Shown piece after piece: positions 22,939 to 40,186 of a stretch of DNA of 64,000 bases. A program made the position numbers and the translations under genes. Below the pieces are notes generated by a model. That model worked only from the letters and a program-made list of their open reading frames with translations, made no database searches and was not told the origin of the DNA. Numbering within the stretch: position 1 is the stretch's first letter; every line of letters begins with the position of its first letter. The DNA is from an uncultured bacterium (GTDB lineage: Bacteria; Atribacterota; Atribacteria; Atribacterales; Caldatribacteriaceae), in assembly GCA_937922705.1 (NCBI GenBank), contig CALAIW010000026.1:1-64000 (forward strand), given 5' to 3'.

Positions 22939-24172
22939 TCTGCGACCCCATATTGGAATTTTTGGGCGGCGGAACGTGGGAAAGTCTTCCCTCATTAACG
23001 CCCTTGTGGGTCAAGAGGTGGCCATTGTTTCTGATATACCCGGAACAACCACTGACCCAGTTTTCAAGCCTATTGAGCTTTTACCCTTTGGCCCGGTGGT
23101 TCTCATTGACACTGCAGGACTTGACGATGAGGGGTTCTTGGGAGAACTTCGAAAGCAAAAGTCTTTGGAGATTCTCCGGCGCTGCGATGTTGCCCTTCTT
23201 GTCTTTGACGGAAAAACAGACTTTTCTCTAGAACGGGAGATTCTCGCCCTTCTTCGGGAGCGGGGAGTACTCGTCCTTGGAGTGGCCAACAAGATCGACG
23301 AAGTCCATAAATTCCCCTCCCCTCCTGAAGACTTTACCATTCCCATTTTCCGCACCAGCGCAAAGACGAAAGAAGGCATCCCCGAACTCAAAGCCACACT
23401 CATTGAGATTCTCCAAAAGGGTATTCAGGAAAAGCCCCTCATTCGAGACCTCCTTCACCCTGGGGACCTTGTTGTCCTGGTCGTTCCTATCGACCTTGGG
23501 GCCCCAAAAGGGCGCCTCATTCTCCCTCAGGTGCAGACCATTCGGGAAATTCTTGACGCAGACGCAATGAGTCTTGTGGTTAAAGAGCGAGAACTCAGCG
23601 AGGCTCTAGAGCGCCTTAAAACTCCACCCCGTCTTGTAGTCACCGATTCCCAGGTATTTCACAAAGTTGCTGGAGCTGTTCCTCCCTCAGTCCCCATAAC
23701 GAGCTTCTCCATCCTCTTTGCCCGTCACAAGGGGGACCTGCAAACCTTTGTCGAGGGAGTGAAAGCTGTAGAGCGCCTCAAACCTGGCGATCGGGTTCTC
23801 ATCCTCGAGGCCTGCACGCACCATCCTCTCCCTGATGACATCGGTCGGGTGAAAATTCCTCGTTGGCTTAGACAATACCTGGGCTTTGACCTGTCCTTTG
23901 AGGTCGTCGCTGGTCCTTCGGTTTCTCTCTCCCTCAAAGACTATAACCTCATTATCCACTGCGGGGGATGCATGATTAACCCCAAAGAAATGCTCTTTCG
24001 TCTCCAGGAGGCCACACGTTTCGGCGTACCAATAACCAACTACGGCATCCTCATTGCGTATCTCCAGGGGCTCTTTCCCAGGGCCTTGGAGGTTTTTCCC
24101 GAAATGGCCTTCCTCAAAGAGGAGACAGTCTCGCCCCTCTTTCGAAAGATCGGTGGCCGCTGGAGCTTGTAG
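22919..24172 (+). CDS. hydF: [FeFe]-hydrogenase maturation GTPase HydF
   Basis: A 417-residue scaffold protein on which the diiron subcluster of the H-cluster is assembled before transfer to the hydrogenase. The N-terminal GTPase has G1 GRRNVGKSS, G3 DTAGLDD and G4 NKID. The middle dimerisation domain follows. The C-terminal cluster-binding region has CTHH near residue 300 and HCGGC near 350, giving the C-x-H and H-C-x2-C ligands expected of HydF. HydE, HydG and hydrogenase subunits are not in the window and must be elsewhere. It overlaps aspA by 20 bases. Confidence 0.96.
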   Translation: MQGTPRSLRPHIGIFGRRNVGKSSLINALVGQEVAIVSDIPGTTTDPVFKPIELLPFGPVVLIDTAGLDDEGFLGELRKQKSLEILRRCDVALLVFDGKTDFSLEREILALLRERGVLVLGVANKIDEVHKFPSPPEDFTIPIFRTSAKTKEGIPELKATLIEILQKGIQEKPLIRDLLHPGDLVVLVVPIDLGAPKGRLILPQVQTIREILDADAMSLVVKERELSEALERLKTPPRLVVTDSQVFHKVAGAVPPSVPITSFSILFARHKGDLQTFVEGVKAVERLKPGDRVLILEACTHHPLPDDIGRVKIPRWLRQYLGFDLSFEVVAGPSVSLSLKDYNLIIHCGGCMINPKEMLFRLQEATRFGVPITNYGILIAYLQGLFPRALEVFPEMAFLKEETVSPLFRKIGGRWSL

Positions 24173-25011: not shown

Positions 25012-25860
25012 TCAGAAAACAACGCCAAACTTCTCAGCGTAGAAACCTCTAACGTCTTTCACCTCTTCCCTCTTCCGTATATTATAAACATACCTGAGGA
25101 CTCGTTTCTTCCAGAACTCATCGGAACTCAAAAAGCCCCTTCTCCAAATGTCGAAATCGTACGCTTTCACCTGGAAACTCAAGACATACTCTCTGTCCAA
25201 AACAAGTTGCACTACAAGCCAGGAGGCATCGGGAAAGATTCGCTTAAGCGAATCGAATCCTACCCCGATTTGGTTCCAAAATGCCTGATCAAGGGAATGG
25301 GTACCCATCTCCATGCGGATGTACGCTTCGTTGTCTTCTTCCAAAAAACCTACATCAAGGACAGTGTACCCAAACTTGGAAAGAAGCGAAGTGGTACGTC
25401 GTATCGCTTCATCCCGAGAGGCGCTCTCCACGATGCTACTTTCCACTAGGGTGAAGGAGGTTTCAACAAGTGTTTCTCCCGAAACGGAAAAGGAGGCTCT
25501 CCAGGTCCCTGAGGGAAGTGGCTTTCCCCCCAGAGGAAGCTCGCCTTTCACTCCAATGTACTCTTGAGTTTCCTCAAGAATGAGAAAACTCTCCACCGGG
25601 GGTCCCGAAGGAGGGAGAAACACAAAGTGACACTCGTCTCCCTTCTGGGCACCTTCAAGAAAAACCCAGAAAACTACTGCTTGATCCTCGGTACTGAATT
25701 TATCCGTCCGATCAAGAGGAAGGCCGTCTTTATCAAGACCGTGGCACAAAGCCCAGTCAAGGACACGAAGCGCTAGAGCCTCTTGCCCTATTCCCAAGAG
25801 TAACCCAAGAATGCAAAAAAGGAGAAGCGTCTTTCGCACCAAAGCCACCACTTGCATCAT
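25012..25860 (-). CDS. secreted or membrane-anchored protein of unknown function
   Basis: A 282-residue protein with an N-terminal hydrophobic segment (about 9-30, LLLFCILGLLLGIGQEALA) ending in an ALA-type cleavage site. A beta-rich region follows (residues 40-145, with FSTEDQAVVFWVFLEG and SGTWRASFSVSGE), then an alpha/beta C-terminal half. The early part resembles small bacterial domains that describe extracellular tone of substrate binding, but no family can be named. It lies 12 bases after the corrinoid methyltransferase gene and three before the operon's last gene, so it travels with C1 genes. Confidence 0.7.
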   Translation of the reverse strand: MMQVVALVRKTLLLFCILGLLLGIGQEALALRVLDWALCHGLDKDGLPLDRTDKFSTEDQAVVFWVFLEGAQKGDECHFVFLPPSGPPVESFLILEETQEYIGVKGELPLGGKPLPSGTWRASFSVSGETLVETSFTLVESSIVESASRDEAIRRTTSLLSKFGYTVLDVGFLEEDNEAYIRMEMGTHSLDQAFWNQIGVGFDSLKRIFPDASWLVVQLVLDREYVLSFQVKAYDFDIWRRGFLSSDEFWKKRVLRYVYNIRKREEVKDVRGFYAEKFGVVF

Positions 25861-25872
25861 ACCGCAAAATGC

Positions 25873-26673
25873 TCACGGACACAACTTTCCAGCCCGGTAC
25901 GCGGCAATATAGTTCATGCAAAATTCGTCTCTCCCAAGGAGGGCAAGAGAGGCAAAAAGGACTGACATGAGTTCCCGATCCAGAGGGTCGATAATCGCTG
26001 CATCCAGGCCATACCCTATGCACAGAGCAAGAAATGTCCGGTTCAGGAGGCGACGGTTGGGCATCCCGAAAGAAATGTTACTCAGGCCACATATCGTCCG
26101 AACGTCAGGGAATTCCCGCTTCAAAGCCTGAAGCGTTTCAAGAAACAACTTGCCCTGTCTTTGGTCCGTCCCAATTGGGACCACAAGGGGGTCGATGAAA
26201 AGGCGCTCCCGCGGAATACCATGGTCATCAGCCGCCCGCACCAGGCGTTCCACAAGCTTCAGGCGGTCAGCAACGGACTCCGGAATTCCCCCATCTCCCA
26301 TCGCCAAACCCACAACGTATGCCCCAAAGGATTGAGCCAGAGGGAGCACTCTCTCAATGCGATGGGGTTCGGCGGTAAAAGAATTAATCATAACCTCCTT
26401 CTTTTTGTACACCCCCAAGGCTTTTTCTAGGGCCTTGTCGTTTGCCGTGTCAAGACACAGGGGAATACCAACGGCATCCTGTAGAAGCTCCACAAGCCAG
26501 GGGAGGTTAGCGATTTCCTCTTCTGCTTCCGTTCCCGCATTGACATCGAGAAAATGCGCTCCCGCTGCCTCCTGTTTTTTAGCCTCCTCAAGGAGAAAAG
26601 CCGCATCCCTTCTTTCAAGCGCCTCCCGAATAGGCTTTCTTGCGGCGTTAATCCGCTCAGCAACAATCAGCAC
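25873..26673 (-). CDS. acsE: methyltetrahydrofolate:corrinoid methyltransferase (AcsE/MtgA-like)
   Basis: A 266-residue TIM-barrel protein of the pterin-binding family. The opening LIVAERINAARKPIREAL, EAGAHFLDVNAGT-like strand (AAGAHFLDVNAG), DTANDKALEKAL and FIDPLVVPIGTD match methyl-THF:corrinoid methyltransferases rather than dihydropteroate synthase, which would have a longer N-terminal loop and folate-synthesis neighbours. It would move the methyl group from methyl-THF to a corrinoid protein, possibly the one encoded at 41972-42613. CODH/ACS subunits are not in the window. It overlaps folC by seven bases. Confidence 0.88.
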   Translation of the reverse strand: MLIVAERINAARKPIREALERRDAAFLLEEAKKQEAAGAHFLDVNAGTEAEEEIANLPWLVELLQDAVGIPLCLDTANDKALEKALGVYKKKEVMINSFTAEPHRIERVLPLAQSFGAYVVGLAMGDGGIPESVADRLKLVERLVRAADDHGIPRERLFIDPLVVPIGTDQRQGKLFLETLQALKREFPDVRTICGLSNISFGMPNRRLLNRTFLALCIGYGLDAAIIDPLDRELMSVLFASLALLGRDEFCMNYIAAYRAGKLCP

Positions 26674-28004
26674 AGCTCCACCTCCTCTTCAAGTACTTCC
26701 CGCACCCGGAATTCCTCTTGGAAAGGTCGGGCAAGGTAAAAGGATCCAGCCACAACCAGGGGGAGACCCAAACGGTCCGCTACGGAGAGCGCTCTCTCCT
26801 TTGCCCGGTAAACATCAGGAATAACCTCCTGAGGGACGGAGAGTCCAGCAAAGTACGCCGAAGCCTCCAAAGCGTGCCAAGCCCTCGGATGGAGAGGTTC
26901 AGTAAACACAAGGTATGCCGCAGTACTCTTGAGTTCCTGAGCAATCCCAGCGTAATCTTTCCCTTCGAGAAATCCCAGAAGGTACACTGCCTTTTCTATC
27001 CCAAGGTAGTCCCGTAGGGTCTTACAAAGTGCCCGGAACGACGCTTGATTGTGGGCAACGTCAAAGATAAGGAGGGGATCCCAAAAGAGAACATCCACCC
27101 GACCCCAGAAGGAAAGGGATTCCAAAGTCTTTGCTATTCGAGAAAGGTCACAAGGAAGGTCAAAAAGGGAAAGCACCCCAAAGGCAGTAAGAGCGTTGGT
27201 CACTTGGTGGTCCCCAAGAAGAGAAAGGACCACCTCTCCCTCTCCCCAAGAAGGGAGAGCAAAAAAGAACCGAGATCCTTGAGGGGTTCGTAAAAGAATC
27301 TCCACTCGAGCCCAATCCGCTATTTCAAAGACTGGGGCGCCTCTTTTCTCCGCCTCTTCAAGAATAGTCCTTCGGGCTTCGTCCTCCTGTGGTGCAAGGA
27401 CAAGAGGTACAGAAGAACGGAGAATCCCTGCCTTCTCCCGGGCAATTGCTGCAAGGGTATTCCCAAGAACCTCCATATGGTCAAAACTTATGGGGGTAAT
27501 AACCGTAACACAGGGCTCAGAAACGTTCGTTGCGTCAAGTCTTCCTCCAAGGCCAACTTCAAAAACCGCCACATCAACTTTGCGCCGTAAAAAGTACAAA
27601 AAGGCAAGGCCCACCGAAACTTCAAAATACGTGGGCTTCCCCCAGGGAGACTCCTCCCCCATCCTTTCTACCACTGGGCGGACTTCTACGACAAGGTCAG
27701 CTAACTCCTGCGGGGTGATATACCTGTCGTTTATGCGGATACGCTCTCGAAAGGTGAAAAGATGGGGCTTCGAGTACAGACCACAGGAGAAATGGAAGCT
27801 CTCAAAAAGACGGTGAAGGATGTAGGAGGTGCTCCCTTTCCCTTTAGTGCCAGCAACAAGGACAGTTGGGACCTCCTTCTCAGGGTTACCAAGGCGGGCC
27901 ATAAACTCCCGCATCCTCTCAAGTTTCAAATCAGTGTAGGGGACGTTGGTCTTCTCATAGTTAATGAGTCCCAAAAGGTACTCCAGGGCTTCTCGATATT
28001 CCAT
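26667..28004 (-). CDS. folC: folylpolyglutamate / dihydrofolate synthase
   Basis: A 445-residue Mur-ligase-family enzyme adding glutamate to folates, which tightens their binding by THF enzymes. The P-loop VAGTKGKGSTSYILHRLF lies near residue 52, followed by SPH-like YSKPHLFTFRERIRIND, EVGLGGRLDATN, and the C-terminal FDVAHNQASFRAL. Its place inside a THF-dependent C1 operon fits. It starts two bases after the FlxA-like stop and overlaps the methyltransferase gene. Confidence 0.95.
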   Translation of the reverse strand: MEYREALEYLLGLINYEKTNVPYTDLKLERMREFMARLGNPEKEVPTVLVAGTKGKGSTSYILHRLFESFHFSCGLYSKPHLFTFRERIRINDRYITPQELADLVVEVRPVVERMGEESPWGKPTYFEVSVGLAFLYFLRRKVDVAVFEVGLGGRLDATNVSEPCVTVITPISFDHMEVLGNTLAAIAREKAGILRSSVPLVLAPQEDEARRTILEEAEKRGAPVFEIADWARVEILLRTPQGSRFFFALPSWGEGEVVLSLLGDHQVTNALTAFGVLSLFDLPCDLSRIAKTLESLSFWGRVDVLFWDPLLIFDVAHNQASFRALCKTLRDYLGIEKAVYLLGFLEGKDYAGIAQELKSTAAYLVFTEPLHPRAWHALEASAYFAGLSVPQEVIPDVYRAKERALSVADRLGLPLVVAGSFYLARPFQEEFRVREVLEEEVELC

Positions 28005-28006
28005 GG

Positions 28007-28834
28007 TCAGTACTCCTCAGGCATTGTGACAAGCATCTCGTAAGAGAACACCGGCCCATCCTGACACACATAGTACGGACCAATGTTGCATCGCCCACAT
28101 TTCCCAAGACCACACTTCATTTTCATCTCTAGCGTCGTAATAATCCTTCGTGCTTCAAAACCCATTTCCCGAAGCGCTTTGATGGTAAACTTTATCATAA
28201 TTGGAGGACCACAGACAATACCCACCCAGTTTGCGCAAGACCTAGTAAACACCTCTTGCAGCACGTTAGGTACAAGCCCTACCCGGCCGCTCCAGGAGGT
28301 ATCCCCTTCGTCCACGGTGAGGCAAAGGGTAAGGTCCTTTCGCTTCTCCCAGGAAGGGAACTCCCACCGAAACACGAGGTCCCCTGGGGTGCGGGCACCA
28401 TAAAGGACAAATACCTCTCCAAAAGACTCTCGGTGCTCCGGAGAGAGAACATAGTTGATAAGAGAACGCAAAGGTGCAAGGCCAATGCCACCCCCCACAA
28501 AGAGGAGGTTTTTCCCCAAAAGTTCCTCAAGGGGAAACCCCTTTCCATAAGGCCCCCGAAGACCAATGGTATCTCCAGGGTTTAAGCGGTGCAGCGCCTG
28601 AGTGACTGAACCAATACGCTTTATGCTGAACTCAAGAAAGGTGGGATTGGTGGGTGATGAGGAAATGGAAAAGGGTGCTTCACCAACACCAGGGACAAAA
28701 ATCTCGGCAAACTGTCCTGGAAGGTACACAAAGTCTTCTGGACGACGAATTCGAAAGGTCTTAATGTCCCGGGTTTCCTCGATAATCTCCTCTATGGGGA
28801 GAAGGCAAGGCGTATACGTCCCCTCACAGCGCAC
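28007..28834 (-). CDS. FlxA-like FAD/NAD-binding oxidoreductase subunit
   Basis: A 275-residue ferredoxin-NADP reductase fold protein. It has a FAD-binding barrel with PGQFAEIFVPGVGEAPFSIS and LRGPYGKGFPL, then an NAD-binding half with FVGGGIGLAPLRSLI and GIVCGPPIMI. A C-terminal [2Fe-2S] site follows, C-x4-C-x2-C-x7-C (CGLGKCGRCNIGPYYVC). This is the layout of FlxA, sulfhydrogenase gamma and AsrB subunits, and of PyrK-type modules. With the next genes it should let NAD(H) exchange electrons with the Hdr core. It overlaps the FlxC-like gene by 11 bases. Confidence 0.88.
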   Translation of the reverse strand: MRCEGTYTPCLLPIEEIIEETRDIKTFRIRRPEDFVYLPGQFAEIFVPGVGEAPFSISSSPTNPTFLEFSIKRIGSVTQALHRLNPGDTIGLRGPYGKGFPLEELLGKNLLFVGGGIGLAPLRSLINYVLSPEHRESFGEVFVLYGARTPGDLVFRWEFPSWEKRKDLTLCLTVDEGDTSWSGRVGLVPNVLQEVFTRSCANWVGIVCGPPIMIKFTIKALREMGFEARRIITTLEMKMKCGLGKCGRCNIGPYYVCQDGPVFSYEMLVTMPEEY

Positions 28835-29789
28835 AGGATACCACCCTCTCTACTGCTTCCCGAATGTCCCAGTTAACGGGACAGGCAAGAACACATCGTC
28901 CACATCCTACGCAGCCAAACTTCCCTTTCCGAAGGGGAAAGTAGGAGAACTTGTGAAGCACTCTCTGGCGGACCCGCTGCAACGGATTTGCTCTTGGGTT
29001 GTGAGAAGAGGCATGAAGGGTAAATTTCGGGAACATACAGCTATCCCAGGTACGAACCATCGCCCCACGGAGTTTCCCCTCCAAAGCAAGGTCAAAGCAA
29101 AAGCAGGTGGGACAGAGGAAAGTACACGCTCCACAGTTTAAGCATCCCCAGGCAACTTCTTCCCAGACTTCCCTCTCGAAAGCGCTATAGAGATACTCTG
29201 GAGTTTTTTCTGGAAGGGGCTTTAGGGCCTCTTTGGCAAGACGTTCCACAAGTTTCTCAAGCTCTTCTTTTTCCAGAGGCTCAAGCGCCCGGCCTTCTGG
29301 TCCTTCCCCTTCAAGATACACCCCAAAGGGGAGAGGCAAGGCAAAGCAATTCCCCCCTTCCCAAGAAAGAGGATGGCCTCCAACCCTTGTACAGAAACAG
29401 GTAGCCTCAAAAAAGGTGCATCCCACAACGAGTAAAGTAAGGTTTTCGCGCCGCACTACATAAGAGGAATCAGGAGGTGCATTTTTCAAAAAGACCTCGT
29501 CAAGAACATGGACAACAGCCTTTGCTTCACAGGGAGCAAGAAGGAGGAGAACCTTTTCTGAAGCAGGGGGGAGAGGAATAACCTTCCATTCTCTTTTCCC
29601 CCACAGAAAGTGATAAAGCTCCTCCCTCTGGGGGAGGAGAAGGCTCTTGGGCGTGGGAAGGGAAGGAAGGGCAATATTGAAGCGACTCAGAACTATTTCC
29701 GTAGCGAAAGCCTTGCTCGCCTGTAACCACCTAAGGAATTCCTCATACGATACGAGACGCCCCTCATAGGATAAACGCATTAGGGTCAT
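28824..29789 (-). CDS. FlxC-like iron-sulfur subunit (sulfhydrogenase beta / AsrA type)
   Basis: A 321-residue protein with an N-terminal domain of the sulfhydrogenase beta/AsrA type (LLLLAPCEAKAVVHVLDEVF, VVGCTFFEATCFCTRVGGHP). Two C-terminal [4Fe-4S] motifs follow: CLNCGACTFLCPTCFC and CVGCGRCVLACP. It would carry electrons between the FlxA-like flavoprotein and the Hdr part. It overlaps both neighbours by 11 and 26 bases, so the three Flx genes are translated together. Confidence 0.85.
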   Translation of the reverse strand: MTLMRLSYEGRLVSYEEFLRWLQASKAFATEIVLSRFNIALPSLPTPKSLLLPQREELYHFLWGKREWKVIPLPPASEKVLLLLAPCEAKAVVHVLDEVFLKNAPPDSSYVVRRENLTLLVVGCTFFEATCFCTRVGGHPLSWEGGNCFALPLPFGVYLEGEGPEGRALEPLEKEELEKLVERLAKEALKPLPEKTPEYLYSAFEREVWEEVAWGCLNCGACTFLCPTCFCFDLALEGKLRGAMVRTWDSCMFPKFTLHASSHNPRANPLQRVRQRVLHKFSYFPLRKGKFGCVGCGRCVLACPVNWDIREAVERVVSCAL

Positions 29790-30684
29790 CCTCCCGATAG
29801 GTTACAAAAGGTGCCGGGGCCTCAACACTTGCCCCAGCCTCAAAGGCAAAGTGCTCCCGCACTATCTCAGCAACGGCAAGAAAGAGTGTGGCAATGGGTA
29901 TTCCCAAGGGACAAGCTCGCTCACAAGCGCCGCACTCCACACAGCGTCCCGCAAGATGCATCGCCCGTCCAAGGTGAAACACAAAGTTGTCCCGAAGGGT
30001 TGGGGAAGGGTGGATAAAGAGGGGCTTGTGACTCTCCGCAAAACACTCCTTGCAGTAACACATGGGGCAAGCATTCCGACAGGCATAGCAACGAATACAA
30101 CGGGAAAGCTCTTGAGCAAAAAATTCCCACCGTTTCTCCTTGGGAAGACGCCAGAGTGCAGCAAGATGGTCCTCAAAAGGAAAGGGTGATGCCTCCGCAC
30201 CAAGAAGGATGTCGTACTCTAGGGGACTCCGGTAGCGACACCGTTTGCACGAAGCCTCCAAAAACGAGGAAAGAGGATGAGGTACCCCTCGAATAAGGAT
30301 GGTACCTTCCTCGAAAGCCACCTCGCTCTCTTTGAGGTCCTTCCATTGGGCGAGCTTTCTCCAGTCCACCATCCCCGGACAGTGCACCCCAAGAATGTAG
30401 AGGTTTTCCCGCTTGAGTTGATGCTCCCGCACAAGGACGGTTAAAGCCCGACTATCGCAACCTTTAGCGACAACGGCTACCTTTCCAAAATCCCCAGGAA
30501 GACGGAGGAGGTACCGTGCGAGATTCGTCCCGCAAAAGGGGGTGAAAACGAGCTCCTCAACTTCTTGCGGATTGCGGAAAAGGTAGGGCCTGGTTCGAAA
30601 GGGAAGGGACCCCCTTTTGTATCCCAGAACACCCTGAACACTCTTTTCTTCGAGAAGTTTCCGAGCTCCTTCACGCAAGGTCAT
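29764..30684 (-). CDS. FlxB-like iron-sulfur protein (FrhB/FdhB fold)
   Basis: A 306-residue protein. The N-terminal 180 residues look like the F420-hydrogenase/dehydrogenase beta fold (VVAKGCDSRALTVLVREHQ, LGVHCPGMVDW). The C-terminal part holds a cysteine-rich region CIRCYACRNACPMCYCKEC and a second [4Fe-4S] motif CVECGACERACP. It matches FlxB or formate-dehydrogenase-beta-type electron carriers. The start at ATG 30684 leaves a 14-base overlap with the MvhD-like gene; a longer frame to 30738 would overlap by 68 bases. It may hold a flavin in addition to clusters. Confidence 0.82.
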   Translation of the reverse strand: MTLREGARKLLEEKSVQGVLGYKRGSLPFRTRPYLFRNPQEVEELVFTPFCGTNLARYLLRLPGDFGKVAVVAKGCDSRALTVLVREHQLKRENLYILGVHCPGMVDWRKLAQWKDLKESEVAFEEGTILIRGVPHPLSSFLEASCKRCRYRSPLEYDILLGAEASPFPFEDHLAALWRLPKEKRWEFFAQELSRCIRCYACRNACPMCYCKECFAESHKPLFIHPSPTLRDNFVFHLGRAMHLAGRCVECGACERACPLGIPIATLFLAVAEIVREHFAFEAGASVEAPAPFVTYREDDPNAFIL

Positions 30685-31105
30685 GGTACTTTCGCTCCCC
30701 TGCAAGTGGGCTTGGACCAAGTTTCTCAACCGCCGCAACTACCGAGGTCACCACTTCGGCAAAACGCTGCCCTTCTGATGCTGAGACCCAGGAGAAATGC
30801 ACCCGTCCCTCAAGGCCAAGGAACCTCAAAAGCTCATAAAGAACGAAAAACTTTCGCCGGGCAAAGTAGTTACCACTTAAGTAGTGGCAATCTCCAGGAT
30901 GACACCCTGAAACAAGCACTCCATCGGCTCCCTCCCGGAGGGCTTTAAGGATATAGAGGGGGTCAACGCTTCCTGAACACGGCACTCGGATAACCCGGAT
31001 ATTCGGAGGGTACTGAATGCGGCTCACCCCAGCAAGGTCTGCCCCCGCATAGCTACACCAATGGCAAAGAAAGGCAACAATTTTAGGTTCCCAGGGAGAG
31101 CTCAT
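30671..31105 (-). CDS. MvhD/FlxD-like [2Fe-2S] subunit
   Basis: A 144-residue hydrogenase delta/FlpD-type protein. It has the cysteine pattern FLCHWCSYAGAD, RVPCSGSVDP and VSGCHPGDCHY, followed by GNYFARRKF, all typical of MvhD, which passes electrons to HdrA. The start at ATG 31105 overlaps the giant HdrA by 23 bases; a longer upstream frame is rejected because MvhD proteins begin near this point. It is the link between the Flx subunits and the HdrA protein. Confidence 0.9.
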   Translation of the reverse strand: MSSPWEPKIVAFLCHWCSYAGADLAGVSRIQYPPNIRVIRVPCSGSVDPLYILKALREGADGVLVSGCHPGDCHYLSGNYFARRKFFVLYELLRFLGLEGRVHFSWVSASEGQRFAEVVTSVVAAVEKLGPSPLAGERKYHDLA

Positions 31106-34100
31106 AGAGGTACTCCACCTCGGCAAGGATAGCTTCTTTGGTAAAACCAAAGACCTGCACCGCTCCACTCCGGCAGGTCGCACTGCACAATCCACACCCC
31201 TTGCACAGTGCCCGGTTGACCTCTGCCACACCCTTTTCCCGGTTTACCCTGATTGCCTGGTACTGGCACACTCTTTCACAATCTCCACAGGCAACACACT
31301 TTTTCGCATCAACGGTGGCAATCTGCGCCTCAGAAAGGAGGGTATCTTTGCTCAAAACCGTCATAAGGCGGGCTACCGCGGCCTTTGCCTGAAGAACACT
31401 CTCTTCGGCCAGCTTTGGGCCATGGGCAAGCCCACAAACGTAAATACCCTCGGTAGCAAAGTCCACCGGGCGAAGCTTTACATGGGCTTCGAGGAAAAAT
31501 CCATCCTGAGTGAGAGGAACTTTAAGGAGCTTTGAGAGTGAGGATGCATCGTCATGAGGCACGATACCAGTACTCAAGACTACAAGATCGGCAAAAAGCA
31601 CAACCTCTTCCTTAAGAAGGGGGTCAAAGAAGCGTACCGAGAGCTTGCCATGTTGTTCCTCCACGGTAGGCATCCCTTCGTCTCCAAACCGGACAAAAAG
31701 GACACCCTTTTTTCGAGCTTTAGTGTAGTACCGCTCATACAACCCATAGGTCCGCATATCCCGGTACAGCACAGTAACTTCCGTTTCCTGAGAGATTTCC
31801 TTAAGGCGTAACGCGTTTTTCACCGCCTGAACACAGCACACTCGGCTGCAGTACGGATGCTTTTCATCTCGGGAACCAACACACTGAATCATGAGGACCT
31901 CTTTTGGAAAACCAAGGGTACCTTCGTGTATCCTTCGTTCGAGTTCCCTTTGGGTGAGAACCCGAGGGTCCTTTCCATAGAGAAAGGCACCATTTTCGGG
32001 AATATACTCTTTACCACCAGTGGCAACGATAATACCTCCATGTTTCAGGGTGTGGCGAGTTTCTCGCTCTTGCACCACACTCTCAAAATTTCCCACAAAA
32101 CCATTGACTTCAACAACGGTACTCTCAGTGAAAACGGTAATTTTAGGGTTCTCCGCAACTTCCCTTCTGAGCCTTTCCCGGAATTCTCCAAGGTCCACCC
32201 CTTCAAGGGTATACCAAAGGTCTTGCCCTCCAAGCTCCTTCTCCCGCTCTACGAGATAGACAGTAAGCCCCTGTCGTGCTGCCTCCACCGCTGCGGTCAT
32301 CCCCGCCAATCCCCCACCAATGATAAGAACCGCTCTTTCCACGGGAACGGGAATGGGAGTAAGCGGCTCAAGAAGTGCAGCCTTGGCTACCGCCATAGCC
32401 ACAAGGTCTTTAGCCTTTTCTGTTGCTTCTTCTTTCTCCTCCTGATGCACCCAGGAACACTGATCGCGGATGTTGGCCATGACACAAAGGTAGGGGTTAA
32501 GACCCGCCTCCTTGAGAGTTTCCCGGAAGAGGGGTTCATGCGTTCGGGGAGAACAGGAGGCTACAACCACCCGGTTGAGACGGTGCTCCTGGATTTTCTC
32601 TTGAATGCGCTTTTGGGTATCCTGTGAGCAGGTGTACAGATTTTCCTCAGCGTACACCACTCCGGGAAGGTTCTTTGCCCACGCAACCACCTCTTCAGTG
32701 TTCACTACTCCAGCAATGTTGATGCCACAACGGCACACAAAAACCCCAATCCGAAGCGGCTCAGAGCTCACATCCCGCTCAGGAGGATACGTTTTCTCCC
32801 GAACATACTGGAAGCGAGACGGTGCAAGAAGCACTCCAACCTCAGAAGCTACCGCACTCCCCTCAACCACTGCCGCTGGAATATCCTTAGGACCTGCCAA
32901 ACTCCCGCATACGAAAACCCCAGGCCGCACACTCCGTGTTCCAAAGGCAGAGAAGTATGGAAAACCTTCTGGATCAAGGGGAACACCAAGGTGCGCAAGG
33001 CGCTTTCTTTCGCTCTCGGGAACACAGAGCCCAACCGAAAGGACCACAAGGTCAAAAACCTCGCTTTCCCTTTTCCCACCCTCATCAACGTAAAAAACCA
33101 CCACATTCCCATCCTCCTGAGGAGCAATATGGCTTACCCGCCCACGGATAAAGCGAATGCCCTGGGTTTTTGCCCGCTCGTAATACCGCTCAAAGTCCTT
33201 CCCAAAGGCTCGCATGTCAATGAGGAAGATGGTAACTTCCAAAGGAGCGGTTTCTCCCTCAGAAGATGGAGAAAACGGTGCACAGCAGGAAACATCCCCT
33301 TCGACACGAAGGTGTTCTTGAGCAACGAGAGCTTCTTTCACCGCATACATGCAGCACACTGAAGAACAAAAGCTCCCCCCTCGTTCTGGGTCGCGGGAAC
33401 CCACACACTGTATGAAAGCAACCCTTCTTGGAACTTTCCCGTCGGAGGGGCGAAGAACTTTCCCCTTTGTCGGACCAGAAGCGTTAAGGATGCGCTCAAA
33501 GTCAAGGCTCGTGATAACATTTGGGTACTTTCGGTACCCAAGCTCTCGAAAGCGTTCCTCAGGGCGGAACACGTCAGTACCCTGAGCGTATACAATCGCT
33601 CCAACTTCAAGAGTACGAAGACGTGCTCTATCCTCGTGACGTATGGCATTCCTCTTACACGCTTCAACACACCTCAGGCACTCTGCGCATCCTCCGCAGG
33701 AAAGACACCTCGAAGCCTCCCTCCGGGCTTCCTCTTCCGTATATCCCGAAATAACCTCTGAAAACCCAGAAAGTCGCTCCACCCCTTCGAGCTTTCTTGG
33801 ACTCACCCCGGGGTTTTTCGCCTTCCCCCAGGGAAGGGAAAGAGGTGCGGGATGACGAGGATTCTCACTAAAGGATTGCCCCCGCAGGAAGGCATGAATA
33901 GCGTAAGCGGCACGTTTCCCATGGGCTATGGCCTCAACGAGAGTTGCTGGCCCAAGGACTAGGTCGCCTCCAGCAAAAACCCAAGGTAAAGAGGTGGCAA
34001 GGTTTTGGTCCACTTTCACCGTTCCCCAGGGAGTAAGCTCAAGCCCTTCGTTCTCAGGCAGAGCAACCTTTTGTCCCGTAGCCACAATGTAGAGGTCTGC

Positions 34101-35546
34101 CGAAACGGTGAATTCGCTTCCCGGAATCACCTCAGGCCGGCGCCTCCCCGAAGCATCAGGAGCACAGAGTCGCACACCGGACATTTCAAGGAGAAGGTGT
34201 CCGTCCTCCTCAATGAAGCGCTTTGGTGCAGCACAGAAGACAAACTCCACACCTTCTTCTTTGGCCTCTTCAACCTCTTCTTGGCGTGCGGGCATCTCAT
34301 CAAAAGAGCGGCGGTAGTACACGGTGACTTCCTTTGCTCCCTGGCGGAGCGCCACTCGAGCACAGTCAATGGCTACATTGCCCCCACCGATGACTGCAAC
34401 GCGTCGCGCCTTGGGGATATCCTCGCAGCGGTGGCAGCGGAGAAGGTACGCAAGACCGTCAATAACCTGGGGATGGTCTTCCCCCTCAATACCAAGGCGC
34501 GCCCCTTTCCACGCTCCACAGGCAAGATATACTGCAGAAAATCCCCAAGCGAAAAGGTCAGAAAGGGTGAAATCTTTCCCCCAGGAGATTCCACAGCGTA
34601 TCTCCACTCCAAGCTTCTCCAAGACCGCGATTTCCCAGTCCACCACCTCACGGGGGAGACGATACGGGGGAATCCCAAAGCGCATCATGCCTCCAGGTTG
34701 GTCCTGGGCCTCAAAAACCACAACACGATACCCAAGAAGACGCAGAAAATACGCACAGCTCAAGCCACTTGGCCCTGCACCAACAATGGCAACAGCTTCA
34801 GGATACTCTCCTTTGACTTCGGGGAGAAACGCTGCGCCAAGGTTACGCTCAAAATCCGCAAGGAACCTCTTGAGGTACGGAATGCGCACTGGAGCATCAA
34901 ACATCCCCCGCTGGCACTGTTCCATGCAGGGGTGGTGACATGCCCGACCACAGATACCTGGAAAGGGGTTGTCCATTCGGACGACCCGAATCGCTTCTTC
35001 AAAGCGTCCCTCCCGAATAAGGGCAATGTACCCTTGGGCCTTTTGCTCTAGAGGACAGGCTGCCTGGCAGTTGGGGGTCCCGTGTTTTGTGATTTGGAAA
35101 GCTCCGGGGAAAGCCTGGGGGAAAAGGCGAAAAATCGCCTTTCGGGTGCTCAACCTTCCCTCAAAGTCATTGGGAAGGCTCACCGGACAGACACTGGCGC
35201 AGTCTCCACACCCTGTACAGGAGGCAACGTCCACGTAACGAGGGTTCTCCTGCACCGTGACGACAAAGTGTCCTGGTTCTCCAGAGATATCGACTACCTC
35301 CGCAAGAGTAAGGACCTCAATATTGAGGTGGCGGCCACACTCTACGAGTTTTGGCGAGAGAATGCACATCGCACAGTCATTGGTGGGGAAGGTTTTGTCC
35401 AGAGAGGCCATAAGCCCCCCAATGCTTGGGGATTTCTCAACAAGGTATACGAAAAATCCCGCTTCGGCAAGATTCAAGGAAGTCTCAATGCCTGCAATAC
35501 CGCCACCAACAACAAGAACCGTCCCAAGAGGGTTACTGTGTTCCAT
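31083..35546 (-). CDS. hdrA: giant HdrA flavoprotein: split HdrA with inserted GltD/NfnB module plus second HdrA
   Basis: One unbroken 1487-residue frame with four parts. (1) Residues 1-150: HdrA FAD domain start GGGIAGIETSLNLAEAG, the FPTNDCAMCILSPKLVEC cysteine motif and one [4Fe-4S] motif CTGCGDCASVCP. (2) Residues 155-565: a GltD/NfnB-like module with NCQAACPLEQKAQGYI, CGRACHHPCMEQC, FAD loop VGAGPSGLSCAYF, NADPH loop IGGGNVAIDCARVALRQGA and YRRSFDEMPA. (3) Residues 600-910: the rest of the first HdrA, with FIQCVGSRDPERGGSFCSSVCC. (4) Residues 930-1487: a complete second HdrA beginning GVFVCRCGINIAGVVN, with its own IQCVGSRDEKHPYCSRVCC and two C-terminal [4Fe-4S] motifs (1417-1470). It probably carries three FAD and several clusters, and can take electrons from NADPH as well as through MvhD. 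Large HdrA fusions (HdrL) are known in sulfate reducers, so the fusion may have relatives. Confidence 0.92.
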   Translation of the reverse strand: MEHSNPLGTVLVVGGGIAGIETSLNLAEAGFFVYLVEKSPSIGGLMASLDKTFPTNDCAMCILSPKLVECGRHLNIEVLTLAEVVDISGEPGHFVVTVQENPRYVDVASCTGCGDCASVCPVSLPNDFEGRLSTRKAIFRLFPQAFPGAFQITKHGTPNCQAACPLEQKAQGYIALIREGRFEEAIRVVRMDNPFPGICGRACHHPCMEQCQRGMFDAPVRIPYLKRFLADFERNLGAAFLPEVKGEYPEAVAIVGAGPSGLSCAYFLRLLGYRVVVFEAQDQPGGMMRFGIPPYRLPREVVDWEIAVLEKLGVEIRCGISWGKDFTLSDLFAWGFSAVYLACGAWKGARLGIEGEDHPQVIDGLAYLLRCHRCEDIPKARRVAVIGGGNVAIDCARVALRQGAKEVTVYYRRSFDEMPARQEEVEEAKEEGVEFVFCAAPKRFIEEDGHLLLEMSGVRLCAPDASGRRRPEVIPGSEFTVSADLYIVATGQKVALPENEGLELTPWGTVKVDQNLATSLPWVFAGGDLVLGPATLVEAIAHGKRAAYAIHAFLRGQSFSENPRHPAPLSLPWGKAKNPGVSPRKLEGVERLSGFSEVISGYTEEEARREASRCLSCGGCAECLRCVEACKRNAIRHEDRARLRTLEVGAIVYAQGTDVFRPEERFRELGYRKYPNVITSLDFERILNASGPTKGKVLRPSDGKVPRRVAFIQCVGSRDPERGGSFCSSVCCMYAVKEALVAQEHLRVEGDVSCCAPFSPSSEGETAPLEVTIFLIDMRAFGKDFERYYERAKTQGIRFIRGRVSHIAPQEDGNVVVFYVDEGGKRESEVFDLVVLSVGLCVPESERKRLAHLGVPLDPEGFPYFSAFGTRSVRPGVFVCGSLAGPKDIPAAVVEGSAVASEVGVLLAPSRFQYVREKTYPPERDVSSEPLRIGVFVCRCGINIAGVVNTEEVVAWAKNLPGVVYAEENLYTCSQDTQKRIQEKIQEHRLNRVVVASCSPRTHEPLFRETLKEAGLNPYLCVMANIRDQCSWVHQEEKEEATEKAKDLVAMAVAKAALLEPLTPIPVPVERAVLIIGGGLAGMTAAVEAARQGLTVYLVEREKELGGQDLWYTLEGVDLGEFRERLRREVAENPKITVFTESTVVEVNGFVGNFESVVQERETRHTLKHGGIIVATGGKEYIPENGAFLYGKDPRVLTQRELERRIHEGTLGFPKEVLMIQCVGSRDEKHPYCSRVCCVQAVKNALRLKEISQETEVTVLYRDMRTYGLYERYYTKARKKGVLFVRFGDEGMPTVEEQHGKLSVRFFDPLLKEEVVLFADLVVLSTGIVPHDDASSLSKLLKVPLTQDGFFLEAHVKLRPVDFATEGIYVCGLAHGPKLAEESVLQAKAAVARLMTVLSKDTLLSEAQIATVDAKKCVACGDCERVCQYQAIRVNREKGVAEVNRALCKGCGLCSATCRSGAVQVFGFTKEAILAEVEYLYELSLGT

Positions 35547-35991
35547 CTTTTTCCCCCCCTAGGTAGTGCTTCCACCACTTTTCATACTCCGGAAACGAAA
35601 AGGCTTTCTTATCCCAAAGAAAAGCGATGCAATCACGCCGAAGTTTCTGGGTGCGAGAATCGAGGTCCTCAATGATGCGCTTCCATTCCGGGGGGACATA
35701 GCCTCCTTCAACCGCCATTTCCCGAAGGACCTGGAGCACATTGGCGAATTCCACCCCCTGTGGGCAATGGGCAACACAGCGGAAACACGCTGCACACATC
35801 CAAATACTCCGGGAAGACAAAACACTTCGATCCCCCAAAAGCACCTGGTGAATAATCCGGCGAGGGTTAAAATCCTCTTCTATCTCCGCCACGGGACAGG
35901 TTGCAGTACACACCCCACAGGAGAAGCACAGAAAAAGCCCTTCTCCCCCTGGGCGATGGGCAACCTCATACCGAAAGGACGTATCACGCAC
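35533..35991 (-). CDS. hdrC: HdrC-like iron-sulfur subunit
   Basis: A 152-residue HdrC protein with two [4Fe-4S] motifs, CFSCGVCTATCPVAE and CAACFRCVAHCPQGVEFANV. HdrC normally joins HdrA to HdrB, but no hdrB is present. The start at GTG 35991 sits eight bases after GGGAGG and overlaps metF by eight bases; the longest frame (36057) would overlap metF by 74. It overlaps hdrA by 14 bases, supporting equimolar synthesis. Its partner here may be MetV, which has its own clusters. Confidence 0.9.
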   Translation of the reverse strand: MRDTSFRYEVAHRPGGEGLFLCFSCGVCTATCPVAEIEEDFNPRRIIHQVLLGDRSVLSSRSIWMCAACFRCVAHCPQGVEFANVLQVLREMAVEGGYVPPEWKRIIEDLDSRTQKLRRDCIAFLWDKKAFSFPEYEKWWKHYLGGEKDGTQ

Positions 35992-36910
35992 CTTCGCCAC
36001 CTCCCTGCATTGGACGGGGGAAAAGACCTGATCTTTGCACAATTTCCGGAACAACACTCTCCCAGGCTACCGCCATGATATGAATTCCTCGGACTCCCTC
36101 AACGCGGCGGAGTGCCTCGATGATTTCAACGGCAATCCGTATCCCCTCTTCTTTTGGGTCCTGGGCACGTTCCATTCGTTCCTCAACCCAGCGAGGGATA
36201 ACCATCCCTGGGACCTCCTCCTTCATGTAGCGAAGAGCCTGAAGCGACTTGAGAGGAATAACCCCTGCAAGGATATGCACCCTCTTGTGGAGACCAAAAC
36301 GGCGAACTTCTTCCATCCACCGGGAAAAGATTTCAAGGTCAAAAACAGCCTGGGTTTGGATGAACTGCGCCCCTGCCTCAACCTTTTTGGCCAGGCGAAA
36401 CACCCGGAATTCCAGAGGATCCGCAAAGGGATTCTCCCCCGCCCCAAGAAATGCCCGGATTTCCCCTTTTGCCTTCTCACCATTGGCAAAAACACCCTCA
36501 TCTCGAAGCTTGCGAAAGATGGAAAGAAGCTGTATCGAGTCGACATCAAAAACGCTTCGCGCTTCCGGGTGATTCCCAAGACTCTGGTGGTCTCCGGTAA
36601 TGCAGAGAAAGTTTGGAATCCCCAAAGCACAGGCACCGAGGAAATCGCTCTGGAGAGCGATACGGTTTCGGTCTCGACAGGCAAGCTGCATCACCGGCTC
36701 AAGACCAGCTTCACACGCGATGAGACAGCTAGCAAAACTTGAAAGGCGCACCACCGCGGTTTGGTTATCGGTAACGTTGACCGCATCAACGTATCCTTTA
36801 ACCTGGACGCACTTCTTTTCGAAACTTGCCCGGTCTGTACCCTTTGGAGGGCCAATTTCAGCAGTTACCACAAAGACCCCACGGTCTAGGAGTTCCTGAA
36901 GCAGGCTCAC
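35984..36910 (-). CDS. metF: methylenetetrahydrofolate reductase MetF
   Basis: A 308-residue TIM-barrel flavoprotein reducing 5,10-methylene-THF to 5-methyl-THF. FVVTAEIGPPKGTD with its catalytic Glu, NVTDNQ, LACRDRNR, LCITGDHQSLGNHP, AGAQFIQTQAVFD and LAGVIPL are the usual motifs. It is preceded by metV with an ATGA-type four-base overlap and followed by hdrC. Acetogens such as Moorella carry metV-metF beside hdrABC-mvhD and form a complex from them; this context argues for the same kind of electron coupling. Confidence 0.95.
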   Translation of the reverse strand: MSLLQELLDRGVFVVTAEIGPPKGTDRASFEKKCVQVKGYVDAVNVTDNQTAVVRLSSFASCLIACEAGLEPVMQLACRDRNRIALQSDFLGACALGIPNFLCITGDHQSLGNHPEARSVFDVDSIQLLSIFRKLRDEGVFANGEKAKGEIRAFLGAGENPFADPLEFRVFRLAKKVEAGAQFIQTQAVFDLEIFSRWMEEVRRFGLHKRVHILAGVIPLKSLQALRYMKEEVPGMVIPRWVEERMERAQDPKEEGIRIAVEIIEALRRVEGVRGIHIMAVAWESVVPEIVQRSGLFPRPMQGGGEGA

Positions 36911-37557
36911 GGCCTGACATCCTCCCGAATGATTTTCCTCTGTGCTCCAAAGCGCGAGGGTGCCCAGTTCTTTGGAGGCTGAATGGCAAAGAGTTCTTCA
37001 AGCCTCCCGAGAGCTTGCATCCTCTCGTAAATGAGTTGCCACGCACAATCCCGATTTGGTCGAACCTCGCACTGCCCATTCTTTGACCCCCCACAGGGAC
37101 CGTTGAGAAGGTTCTTGGCACAGCGGGCCACTGGGCAGATATTCCCAAAGCGATGCACAACGCACTCCCCACACCCGATACACCGCTCTTCAAAAACTCC
37201 AACCCCTAAAGGTGCACCCATAAAGCTGGTGTTAAGACCAGGAAAAACGGGAATTTTTGGAAAAACCTCGCTCAGCGTTTGCACCCCCACACCACAGGCA
37301 AGAGAAAGCACTGCAGAGAAGGCAGAAATCGTCTTCTCAAGGGGCATAATAAACTCCCTTTCGCACTGTCGCTCAACCGACGTGGCCTCTGCCGCAAAGC
37401 CTTTGAGTCGCAGCAAAAGGGCAAGTTCCCGAGCCTCTTTCTCTCCTCCGGAAAGACATACCGTGACGCAAGCTCCACATCCAAGAACAAGAACCTCCTT
37501 ATAGGGAGCAAGGAGAGCAAGAATTTCTTTGAGGGGCTTTTGTTCTCCGACAATCAT
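36907..37557 (-). CDS. metV: MetV, zinc/iron-sulfur partner of MetF
   Basis: A 216-residue methylene-THF reductase C-terminal-type protein. The N-terminal half has LGCGACVTVC and RQCEREF, an arrangement of metal ligands. The C-terminal half has ERCIGCGECVVHR, ICPVARCAKNLLNGPCGG and a final CAWQLIYERM motif, all typical of MetV. It is needed for MetF activity in acetogens and passes electrons to the MetF FMN. The start ATG 37557 overlaps the upstream stop as ATGA; an earlier in-frame start at 37611 has no support. Confidence 0.92.
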   Translation of the reverse strand: MIVGEQKPLKEILALLAPYKEVLVLGCGACVTVCLSGGEKEARELALLLRLKGFAAEATSVERQCEREFIMPLEKTISAFSAVLSLACGVGVQTLSEVFPKIPVFPGLNTSFMGAPLGVGVFEERCIGCGECVVHRFGNICPVARCAKNLLNGPCGGSKNGQCEVRPNRDCAWQLIYERMQALGRLEELFAIQPPKNWAPSRFGAQRKIIREDVRP

Positions 37558-37901
37558 CCAAGAACCCTCGCTTTGAGTTCTCCAAGGCGGTTGAGGTGAG
37601 CAAAAACACAAAAGACCTTCTTGGGTACCGCAGCTTCTTCAAGGAGCTGCGAGATTCGGGCTACTCGTTTCTCAGCAAGGGTACTCCCCCAGGTATTCCG
37701 ACAACTCGAAGGCGGACAGCCCACAAGAAGGAGGGTATCACACCAAAGAAGCGCCTCAAAAATCGTCTCCTCTTTTACCCCACCAAGACAGGGTACAGGA
37801 ATGACTCCTGCAATCCGGTCCCAGATATTTGGGTTTTCCCTCCCCAAGGCACAGAGTGCCGGAAACCCACTCCGTTCACACCCTATGATTCCCAAAGCCA
37901 C
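37554..37901 (-). CDS. cysteine-poor MvhD-like protein
   Basis: A 115-residue protein related to MvhD. It keeps VPCLGGVKEETIFEAL and LLLVGCPPSSCRNTWGSTLAEKRV, which align with the MvhD pattern C-G-x..GC-x2-x-x-C-x..GN..A..R. It lacks the N-terminal CxWC pair, replaced by GCERSG, so a [2Fe-2S] cluster of the usual type is doubtful. The start at GTG 37901 (GAGG nine bases upstream) gives a 26-base overlap with the polyferredoxin gene; the frame extends to 37958. Together with the two genes before it, it forms a second HdrA-MvhD-like set. Confidence 0.7.
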   Translation of the reverse strand: MALGIIGCERSGFPALCALGRENPNIWDRIAGVIPVPCLGGVKEETIFEALLWCDTLLLVGCPPSSCRNTWGSTLAEKRVARISQLLEEAAVPKKVFCVFAHLNRLGELKARVLG

Positions 37902-39216
37902 AGCGCACCACCTCAAACGTGATTGCCCCTGCTGGACAAAGACCGGCACAGATACCACACCGTGTACAAAGCGCCGCGTTCACCGCAACGCACCGCTTGA
38001 GATTTCCTGAAAGTTCAATCGCTCCCACAGGGCAGCTCCGAAGGCAGGTCAGGCACAAAGCGCAGCGCTCTGCATCGACAACGACCCGTCCTTCCTCAAG
38101 GACTCTCCCTTCCCTAAGGTACGAGGAAACGGCTGTCACCAAGGCTTCCACATCACCTTTGGCCACAAAAACTCCTGGAATATTCGTGGCAAAAGGGGGG
38201 AGGTTAGGATTTTCAGGGATCTCCAGAGGAACCTCCCGGTCGCTTAGGAAAACCTCTTCAAAGGGTGGAAGAAGAAAACGCCTTCGGGCTACCGGGACAA
38301 GGAAATGGGCTTCGAAACGTACCGGGAAAGGGTCTTTTTCGGGAATGTACTCCACAACAACGCGGCGCATATCAGAACTTGGAGAAAGATGGACTCGAGA
38401 AAGAGGAAGCTTTTCAAAGATAACCCCACTTTCCCGAGCCTTCCTGAAGGCCTCCTCAAACCCCTCATGAGCAACAAAAATGTCCTCTGCAAGGACTATA
38501 ACCTCCACCCCCTGAGGGGGCAAAGACGCTAAAGCAAAAATTTCCTCCCAATCCTCGGGATAAGGATGGGGTGAGGGAACAAGAAGGACAAGGCACATTT
38601 TTCGAAACAATGTAACTTTAAGGATTTGAGAAAGACGCGCAAGAGGCACAACTCTTTGTGTTTCCAGGACTTCCTCGGGTATTTCCAGAGGCGGTTCTTC
38701 CTGGAGAGAGGGAATAAGCACACAGGCGCCCACAAGGAGATCGTGGGGAGTAATGTGAAAATCCATCCCCTTCCGGGAAAGGAGCAAAGAGGGGAAAGAA
38801 ACCACCGGAATACCCACCTTGGAAAAAGCCTGAGAGAGGGTATCGCTATCCCCCGGATAGAGGAGTACCCTCCGGGTCGGAGTGACCCGCTGCAGGGTGA
38901 TTGCTCGGTGAGGAGGGGTAAGAGATCGCAGAAAACTTCGCCAAAGCAGGTGACATTTCCTCTCGGGCAAAGCGCTTATCTCCTCGTACGGAAAAACGTG
39001 AACCGCAAGAGGATTAACCCCAAGTCGCAACGCAAACTCAGCAATATTCTCTTCCGTCCACAGGGAATTCCCAAGGACCACCAAAAGAGACGAGGGCGGA
39101 AAGGTTCGCACCTCTCCAGGGGTCAAAACCTCAAAAGAGAAGGAAGCCTCACGAAGCTCCTCGGCCATCCAAGACGGCACATCCTTGTTAGGAGAAAAAA
39201 GGTATACCTGACGCAC
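37876..39216 (-). CDS. HdrA C-terminal-like polyferredoxin
   Basis: A 446-residue protein. The last 80 residues carry two [4Fe-4S] motifs, CALCLTCLRSCPVGA and CTRCGICAGLCPAGA, in the arrangement seen at the C terminus of HdrA. They are preceded by a segment (FATNIPGVFVAKGDVEALVTAV) that resembles the HdrA GVFVCG-G motif. The first 330 residues look like a degenerate, cysteine-free copy of the HdrA N-terminal domain (NIAEFALRLGVNPLAVHVFP) plus linker, but I cannot align them with confidence. It starts one base after the FAD protein gene, so the pair probably forms a split HdrA. Confidence 0.7.
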   Translation of the reverse strand: MRQVYLFSPNKDVPSWMAEELREASFSFEVLTPGEVRTFPPSSLLVVLGNSLWTEENIAEFALRLGVNPLAVHVFPYEEISALPERKCHLLWRSFLRSLTPPHRAITLQRVTPTRRVLLYPGDSDTLSQAFSKVGIPVVSFPSLLLSRKGMDFHITPHDLLVGACVLIPSLQEEPPLEIPEEVLETQRVVPLARLSQILKVTLFRKMCLVLLVPSPHPYPEDWEEIFALASLPPQGVEVIVLAEDIFVAHEGFEEAFRKARESGVIFEKLPLSRVHLSPSSDMRRVVVEYIPEKDPFPVRFEAHFLVPVARRRFLLPPFEEVFLSDREVPLEIPENPNLPPFATNIPGVFVAKGDVEALVTAVSSYLREGRVLEEGRVVVDAERCALCLTCLRSCPVGAIELSGNLKRCVAVNAALCTRCGICAGLCPAGAITFEVVRCGFGNHRV

Positions 39217-39217
39217 C

Positions 39218-40186
39218 TTATCCTCCGAGAAATCTCAAAAGGTCTTCGGCAAGTCTTTCTGCTTCACCAATGGTGCTCACAATATCCTTTGGACCGGTAG
39301 CTGTCCCACACGCAAAGATTCCATCCTCAGGACGGGGCACAAGAAACCCACCCTCCTTTTGAGGAAGGCGAAAGAGCTCTCCCGCACGTCTTGTCCCCGA
39401 AGACGGCACAAGACCAACCGAAAGTACCACCGCGTCGTAACGCCGCTTCACGACCTTCCCCTCTATCTCCACCCAAACCGTAACCCCCAAAGCGTCCTCC
39501 TCAAGGGCAAAAGGAAGAGAACGAAAGAGAGATACCGAAGACGCTATGGTACGAAGGTCTTTCTCCCCGTCTCCAAAGATTTGCAGGTCCATATAGTATA
39601 GGTCACAAGACGTTTCAGGGAAGCGAAACCGGAGGTTTTCCACCAACCGCAGGGCATAGCGGCAACACACTTGTGAGCAGTATCCCCGCCTCTCCTTGCT
39701 GCTTCGGGAGCCCACACACTGCACAAAAGCACAAGAAGAAAAAGAGGCGAAGTCCTCAAGATTTCCGCTTTTGAGTTTTTTCTCCAGCTCAAAACCGGTG
39801 AAAATGCGCCTCTTTCGCCCCCAAAGGTACCGGGGAAATTCCTCCACCCGAAAAGGAACCGCCCCCGTTGCTAGGACCACACTACGAACCGCAAAGGCAC
39901 GGTGATTGGTAGCAACATGAAAGACTCCCTTTCCCCAGGACACGGACTCTAGAGATTCTCCAGTAATACTGTGTATCCCAAAAGATGCCTTCCGCAGTAC
40001 CTCTACCGCTCGACACACCCCGCAGCGAAGACACCGATTCGTAGCCTTACAGGAAAGCTCCCTGGCAAGGCCTCCAAGAAACTCCTTTTCCTCAAGGACA
40101 AGAACGCTAGCTGTACCTTCAAGGGCAGAAGCCACCGTAAGTCCGGCAATACCCCCACCCACCACAAGGACATCGAAACGTTCCAT
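39218..40186 (-). CDS. HdrA-like FAD-dependent oxidoreductase (stand-alone FAD domain)
   Basis: A 322-residue flavoprotein. FDVLVVGGGIAGLTVASALEG is the FAD-binding Rossmann start. CKATNRCLRCGVCRA gives four cysteines in the position of the HdrA FAD-proximal cluster, and FVQCVGSRSSKERRGYCSQVCC is the HdrA hallmark. GIFACGTATGPKDIVSTIGEAE closes the FAD domain. It has no C-terminal ferredoxin domain, which is instead on the next gene. It shares one base with the fhs stop. It would bifurcate or confurcate electrons only if it works with the polyferredoxin and MvhD-like proteins. Confidence 0.82.
   Translation of the reverse strand: MERFDVLVVGGGIAGLTVASALEGTASVLVLEEKEFLGGLARELSCKATNRCLRCGVCRAVEVLRKASFGIHSITGESLESVSWGKGVFHVATNHRAFAVRSVVLATGAVPFRVEEFPRYLWGRKRRIFTGFELEKKLKSGNLEDFASFSSCAFVQCVGSRSSKERRGYCSQVCCRYALRLVENLRFRFPETSCDLYYMDLQIFGDGEKDLRTIASSVSLFRSLPFALEEDALGVTVWVEIEGKVVKRRYDAVVLSVGLVPSSGTRRAGELFRLPQKEGGFLVPRPEDGIFACGTATGPKDIVSTIGEAERLAEDLLRFLGG

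Follow-up and report, generated by a model that had tools for sequence, protein, structure and literature searches.

An HdrB-free cluster of MetVF, HdrC, HdrA, MvhD and Flx-like genes in Atribacterota

The window analysed here, positions 1 to 64,000 of contig CALAIW010000026.1 from an uncultured Caldatribacterium (Atribacterota), carries an operon that places the MetVF methylene-tetrahydrofolate (methylene-THF) reductase beside HdrC, a large HdrA, MvhD and three Flx-like subunits, in a genome that gave no match to HdrB. This cluster is a new variant of the Hdr-type methylene-THF reductase (MTHFR). On balance, the operon probably encodes a single flavin-based bifurcating (or confurcating) methylene-THF reductase, with MetVF substituting for HdrB and NAD(P)H entering through the Flx subunits. 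Electron bifurcation by the MetVF-HdrABC-MvhD system of Moorella was first suspected in 2014, with the second acceptor and the role of HdrB still to be settled, and in bacteria there is no known heterodisulfide on which HdrB could act (PMC8578096, PMC9430772). A lineage with MetVF, HdrC and HdrA, no HdrB, and an added NAD(P)H dehydrogenase module amounts to a deletion experiment made by nature: should MetVF be coupled to HdrA here, HdrB is dispensable for that coupling. One conserved operon without HdrB makes the coupling of methylene-THF reductase to energy metabolism easier to test, and the lineage offers thermophilic proteins with a defined electron input for this purpose. It would also provide a candidate site of energy conservation in the C1 metabolism of Atribacteria that lack acetyl-CoA synthase.

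The genes from metV to flxA span exactly 28007-37557 on the minus strand. They are metV (36907-37557; Fe-S/zinc-type small subunit of MetVF; PF12225, 2.5e-36), metF (35984-36910; the reductase flavoprotein; PF02219, 6e-37), hdrC (35533-36000, start codon estimated; two CxxCxxCxxxCP motifs, with NCBIfam HdrC matches, a Pfam HdrC-type Fer4 match and alignment in support), hdrA (31083-35546; Pfam HdrA, alignment to 5odc), mvhD or flxD (30671-31105; FlpD family, PF02662, 3e-52), a flxC-like gene (29764-30684) for an FdhB/FrhB-related Fe-S protein (PDB 7bkb_E, FdhB of the HdrABC-Fdh complex, 6e-33), a flxB-like gene (28824-29789) for an AsrA or sulfhydrogenase beta-type Fe-S protein (TIGR02910, 1.3e-35; 9nez_B, 2e-25) and a flxA-like gene (28007-28834) for a FAD/NAD(P)-binding protein resembling sulfhydrogenase gamma and AsrB (Pfam, NCBIfam; 9nez_C, 8e-57). 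All eight genes lie where an earlier note on this DNA had placed them, with overlaps of about 4-26 bases, and Pfam confirmed their families; its flxB and flxC labels were probably swapped, as the gene adjoining mvhD is FdhB/FrhB-like and the next is AsrA/sulfhydrogenase-beta-like. The Flx names were given by family resemblance, no Desulfovibrio Flx sequence having been aligned. The operon extent drawn in that note proved too short: it left out three genes upstream, two for the parts of a split, degenerate HdrA and one for a further MvhD. The unbroken minus-strand run covers 41880-25873 in the order fhs, HdrA'-N, HdrA'-C, mvhD2, metV, metF, hdrC, hdrA, mvhD, flxC, flxB, flxA, folC and a methyl-THF:corrinoid methyltransferase gene; most neighbours within it overlap, by a few to 26 bases.

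No match to the CCG domain of HdrB (PF02754) was detected in the 1.85-Mb genome (99.42% complete; 12 of 14 control genomes positive), in any of the 12 genomes of the family, or in the single-contig order-mate G014; the domain does occur in a few genomes from a different family of this order. A CCG-pattern scan of all window open reading frames (ORFs) of at least 120 residues returned none. The absence of HdrB, first noted for the window, thus extends to the whole genome and the family, the search of the remaining genome having now been made. Since hdrC and hdrA overlap or abut, there is no place for hdrB between them, and metF directly adjoins hdrC.

MetV was sought in 386 genomes, 102 of which were positive, and 60 further neighbourhoods were read. 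In order-mates, the order running from the corrinoid protein gene and fhs through to folC and the methyltransferase gene is identical as far as the contigs reach, and within the phylum sample MetV was found only in this order. The recurrence of the gene order in order-mates with MetV and in two other phyla is far beyond chance. Most MetVF pairs surveyed have no HdrA in view; those that do fall into two types. Type A has the Moorella-like arrangement HdrC-HdrB-HdrA-MvhD-MetV-MetF with no Flx in view (L079, L080, L083, L086, L100, L102, L103). Type B, that of the window, has Flx and lacks hdrB; outside Atribacterota it occurs in two other small phyla, represented by G305 (L081, with relatives L151 and L152) and G260 (L113, with relatives L153 and L154). 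The MetVF-HdrA clusters seen contain HdrB or Flx, never both (rough Fisher p 0.018 at the level of independent families); because this exclusion rests on few lineages and one tree split, it counts as a single evolutionary contrast. HdrB was not found in the five G260-phylum genomes searched or in G407, and G305, G405 and G406 each encode one, which in G405 and G406 stands beside a different HdrA. L155 is a classical Flx-HdrABC cluster that lacks MetVF and includes a CCG protein resembling HdrB, and L150, a gap in the pattern, is type B-like with HdrCA-Flx and no MetVF in the stretch read. A contig peptide-pattern scan matched almost only Atribacterota owing to its narrow patterns, and is not evidence of phylum restriction. 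In a literature search that left subscription journals aside, no paper combining Atribacterota with Hdr-type MTHFR was found.

The 1487-residue HdrA is the sole full HdrA of the genome; a search with the HdrA profile otherwise recovered only the adjoining split copy and two GltD-type proteins (frames of 498 and 1034 residues). It comprises an N-terminal half of the TrxR-like FAD type, interrupted by a GltD/NfnB-like insert (residues ~157-560), then an MvhD-like domain, a second TrxR-like FAD half and a C-terminal 2x[4Fe-4S] domain. Residues E356 and K409 (M. thermolithotrophicus numbering) correspond to E684 and K737 in the N-half, a bifurcation pair invariant in all HdrA sequences aligned, and the C-half has a matching E/K pair. 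The HdrA proteins of types A and B lie on opposite sides of one branch (support 100/99) in a tree whose root is unknown. All type B sequences contain the NADP-type dinucleotide motif YRR[S/T]...EMPA in the GltD insert, with an acidic variant in two of the four GltD-carrying type A sequences; from family knowledge, the insert is predicted to form a second pyridine-nucleotide site, of the NADP(H) type. HdrC retains both Fe-S motifs in type B. Type A HdrC ends in ~60 residues that include the conserved stretches GR..E...YKL and VR.IF; in type B a different tail stands there, with its own conserved motif, D-x3-Q-x-[IL]-R. Such an exchange would fit the expected trace of one partner lost and another gained. 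The likeness of FlxA and FlxB to sulfhydrogenase gamma and beta, and of FlxC to FdhB of HdrABC-FdhAB, supports, without proving, a route FlxA-FlxB-FlxC-MvhD-HdrA.

From the gene content, order, conservation, missing HdrB and motif signatures, we infer a complex with the following electron route, direction and cofactors. NAD(P)H would deliver a hydride to FlxA, and electrons would then pass along FlxB, FlxC and MvhD until they reach the bifurcating FAD that HdrA carries in its N-half. From there one would leave to ferredoxin by the Fe-S domains of HdrA and the other would reach MetV and MetF through HdrC, with MetVF occupying HdrB's place at the HdrC end and methylene-THF being reduced. The GltD insert may act as a second pyridine-nucleotide port, predicted to use NADP(H), and the same complex could run in reverse when methyl-THF is oxidised. 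The proposal draws on the operon being kept intact across the order while HdrB is absent from the genome and family. The HdrB-or-Flx exclusion, the hdrC/hdrA overlap, the metF-hdrC adjacency and the remodelled HdrC tail all fit MetVF standing in for HdrB, and in Sporomusa pull-downs both MetF and MetV brought down HdrA, a precedent for contact between MetVF and HdrA (PMC9430772). The replacement of HdrB by MetVF, already suggested in the earlier note, thereby gains comparative evidence; the second NAD(P) site, the split HdrA and MvhD2 had been overlooked, and the last two offer another route to MetVF. A broader version is tentative: a class of HdrB-free MTHFR in at least three phyla, with MetVF docked on HdrC, one complex linking NAD(H) (at FlxA), NADP(H) (at the GltD insert), ferredoxin and methylene/methyl-THF, and the split, non-bifurcating HdrA as an accessory relay.

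Several observations weigh against this model, whose weakest step is the route to MetVF. MetVF enzymes elsewhere are reported to work with reduced ferredoxin alone. Some Atribacteria no longer have the C-half E/K pair of HdrA (K to R, E to A), type B MetV was not recovered as its own clade, and the stretch read of the G406 locus shows HdrCA-Flx but no MetVF. No ferredoxin reduction was seen in vitro with the related complex of Moorella (PMC8578096). Finally, the AlphaFold model of MetV had no significant fold match in the PDB and nothing HdrB-like was seen, and MetV as a structural mimic of HdrB was rejected on this basis.

A possible, if less probable, alternative is that electrons reach MetVF through the genes directly before metV, with HdrC otherwise employed. 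HdrA'-N (39218-40186, minus strand; 8rvv_A, 8e-30; alignment) is an HdrA-derived TrxR-like FAD protein, and HdrA'-C (37876-39216, minus strand) a degenerate C-half whose AlphaFold model has the fold of HdrA (its top PDB matches are HdrA structures, 7bkd_A at prob 1.00; alignment); together they make up a second HdrA, split in two and lacking a GltD insert. MvhD2 (37554-37901, minus strand, start estimated; PF02662, 3e-12; alignment) is a divergent second FlpD protein. Both the order and the G305 phylum keep mvhD2 before metV, while in the G260 phylum folD lies inside the cluster between the two genes. MvhD-metV-metF also occurs as a stand-alone triplet with no HdrA in view (L088, L091, L093, L098, L128), which suggests that MvhD is a general partner of MetVF. 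The equivalent of K409 is arginine in all HdrA'-N sequences, and a simple relay would be expected to lose the bifurcation lysine; the split HdrA most likely serves as a relay that does not bifurcate. However, this HdrA, which the G305 phylum retains in fuller form, is eroded in Atribacteria, where HdrA'-C has lost its FAD motif (keeping 2x[4Fe-4S]) and MvhD2 one cysteine, changes that resemble the decay of a redox role.

It is rather unlikely that HdrCA-Flx is a separate NADH/NADP/ferredoxin transhydrogenase of the Nfn/Stn kind, merely co-transcribed with a MetVF that is fed by free reduced ferredoxin. The GltD insert does match Nfn-type chains, as well as molybdopterin/formate-dehydrogenase-type chains with GltD domains, the L150 cluster has no adjacent MetVF, and the Clostridium ljungdahlii MetVF is reported to depend on ferredoxin (PMC8515935). 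Yet the genome already encodes the two other GltD-type proteins, the overlapping genes keep a fixed order across three phyla, and the Sporomusa pull-downs connect HdrA with MetF and MetV (PMC9430772). It is very improbable that an HdrB escaped detection, through a gap in the assembly or strong divergence, and that the complex is in fact of the usual Moorella type: the genome is in 48 contigs, so that a gap is formally possible at 99.4% completeness, but HdrB is also absent from all 12 family genomes, from single-contig G014 and from the G260 phylum, the HdrC C-terminus is remodelled, and the CCG-pattern scan of the window was empty.

Compared with known systems, the preferred HdrB-free complex plausibly works like two of them, and by its lack of HdrB the cluster falls outside both. 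With the Hdr-type (type IV) MTHFR of Moorella thermoacetica and Sporomusa ovata it shares MetV, MetF, HdrC, HdrA and MvhD in one cluster, and Moorella HdrA has the same domain order, including the GltD insert, and the same E/K bifurcation residues (PMC9430772). Unlike that type, it comes with no HdrB and no acetyl-CoA synthase in the genome, adds FlxCBA, the split second HdrA and MvhD2, and has hdrC beside metF with a remodelled HdrC tail. FlxABCD-HdrABC (FloxABCD) of Desulfovibrio and other anaerobes shares FlxA, FlxB, FlxC and MvhD/FlxD with HdrC and HdrA, but includes HdrB with DsrC as high-potential partner (PMC10553843), where MetVF stands here. A metVF-hdrA cluster likewise without hdrB is described in Thermacetogenium phaeum, with HdrB and HdrC encoded elsewhere in the genome and, in the part of that report consulted, no Flx (PMC6895022). 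HydB-HdrAC of NPL-UPA2 also combines HdrA and HdrC without HdrB, but with HydB and Etf alongside rather than MetVF (PMC6305446).

Upstream of metV (37554-41880), the run begins with fhs (40186-41880; formate-THF ligase, PF01268, 3e-265), preceded by a corrinoid protein gene (41972-42613; nearest to the glycine betaine type MtgC, NF047996, 3e-73, below cut-off); downstream of flxA lie a folC-type ligase gene (26667-28004; Mur_ligase domains) and the methyl-THF:corrinoid methyltransferase gene (25873-26673; NF005719, over cut-off), all on the minus strand. A formate/nitrite-type transporter (42856-43488, plus strand; TIGR00790, 2e-59, below cut-off) is the divergent neighbour. The acetyl-CoA synthase CdhC domain was absent from this genome and its family and within the order was found only in G018 and G021. 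This agrees with a published account that lists fhs, folD and metF alongside an incomplete Wood-Ljungdahl pathway and makes no mention of HdrA (PMC11227167); acetogenesis was therefore rejected for this genome, and methylene-THF is unlikely to be an acetogenic electron sink. Rnf runs through the order, with an Rnf/Nqr-type subunit encoded by 24 of 25 genomes, so reduced ferredoxin could become an ion gradient. The operon fits reductive use, from formate to methyl groups, and also oxidative use, in which methyl groups would end as formate, Fhs would form ATP and the adjoining transporter would export the formate. The standard potential (E0') of methylene/methyl-THF is -200 mV and that of NAD(H) -320 mV; in the reductive direction the reaction can consequently cover the cost of reducing ferredoxin, and in the oxidative direction confurcation with reduced ferredoxin would be required. 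A role confined to methionine supply is made less likely by a bifunctional homocysteine S-methyltransferase/MTHFR that the genome encodes apart from the operon (L161:5190-7100), while a ~300-residue homocysteine methyltransferase, nearly universal in the order, keeps such supply possible. Methylotrophy through an MttB-type enzyme is possible, one MttB being encoded in this genome (L159:8513-9937, adjoining a sugar-type ABC transporter operon); it is not general, as several operon-keeping order-mates lack MttB.

Further variation was noted around related clusters. In G018 (Nitricultor-like), an acetyl-CoA synthase gene (L158:3888-6212) adjoins the corrinoid-fhs end. In the G260 phylum a gene for a GAF-HD domain protein (Pfam) separates hdrC from hdrA (L113:6148-7896), with a same-length ORF at L153:3362-5110, and an insertion of ~1.4 kb separates mvhD and flxC at L039:14256-15646, absent from the same-genus locus L040. 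A MetV-type domain occurs in a 660-700-residue ORF directly beside metV (L108:3020-5044, similar in G161, G171, G228, G292, G302 and G373), and an 8-kb contig has FlxB- and FlxA-like genes near metV with no HdrA (L137:3956-5941). Within the window, a secreted-looking protein with no NCBIfam match (25012-25860) accompanies the methyltransferase in much of the order, and the [FeFe] hydrogenase maturase HydF (22919-24172) adjoins a fumarase/aspartase-family lyase.

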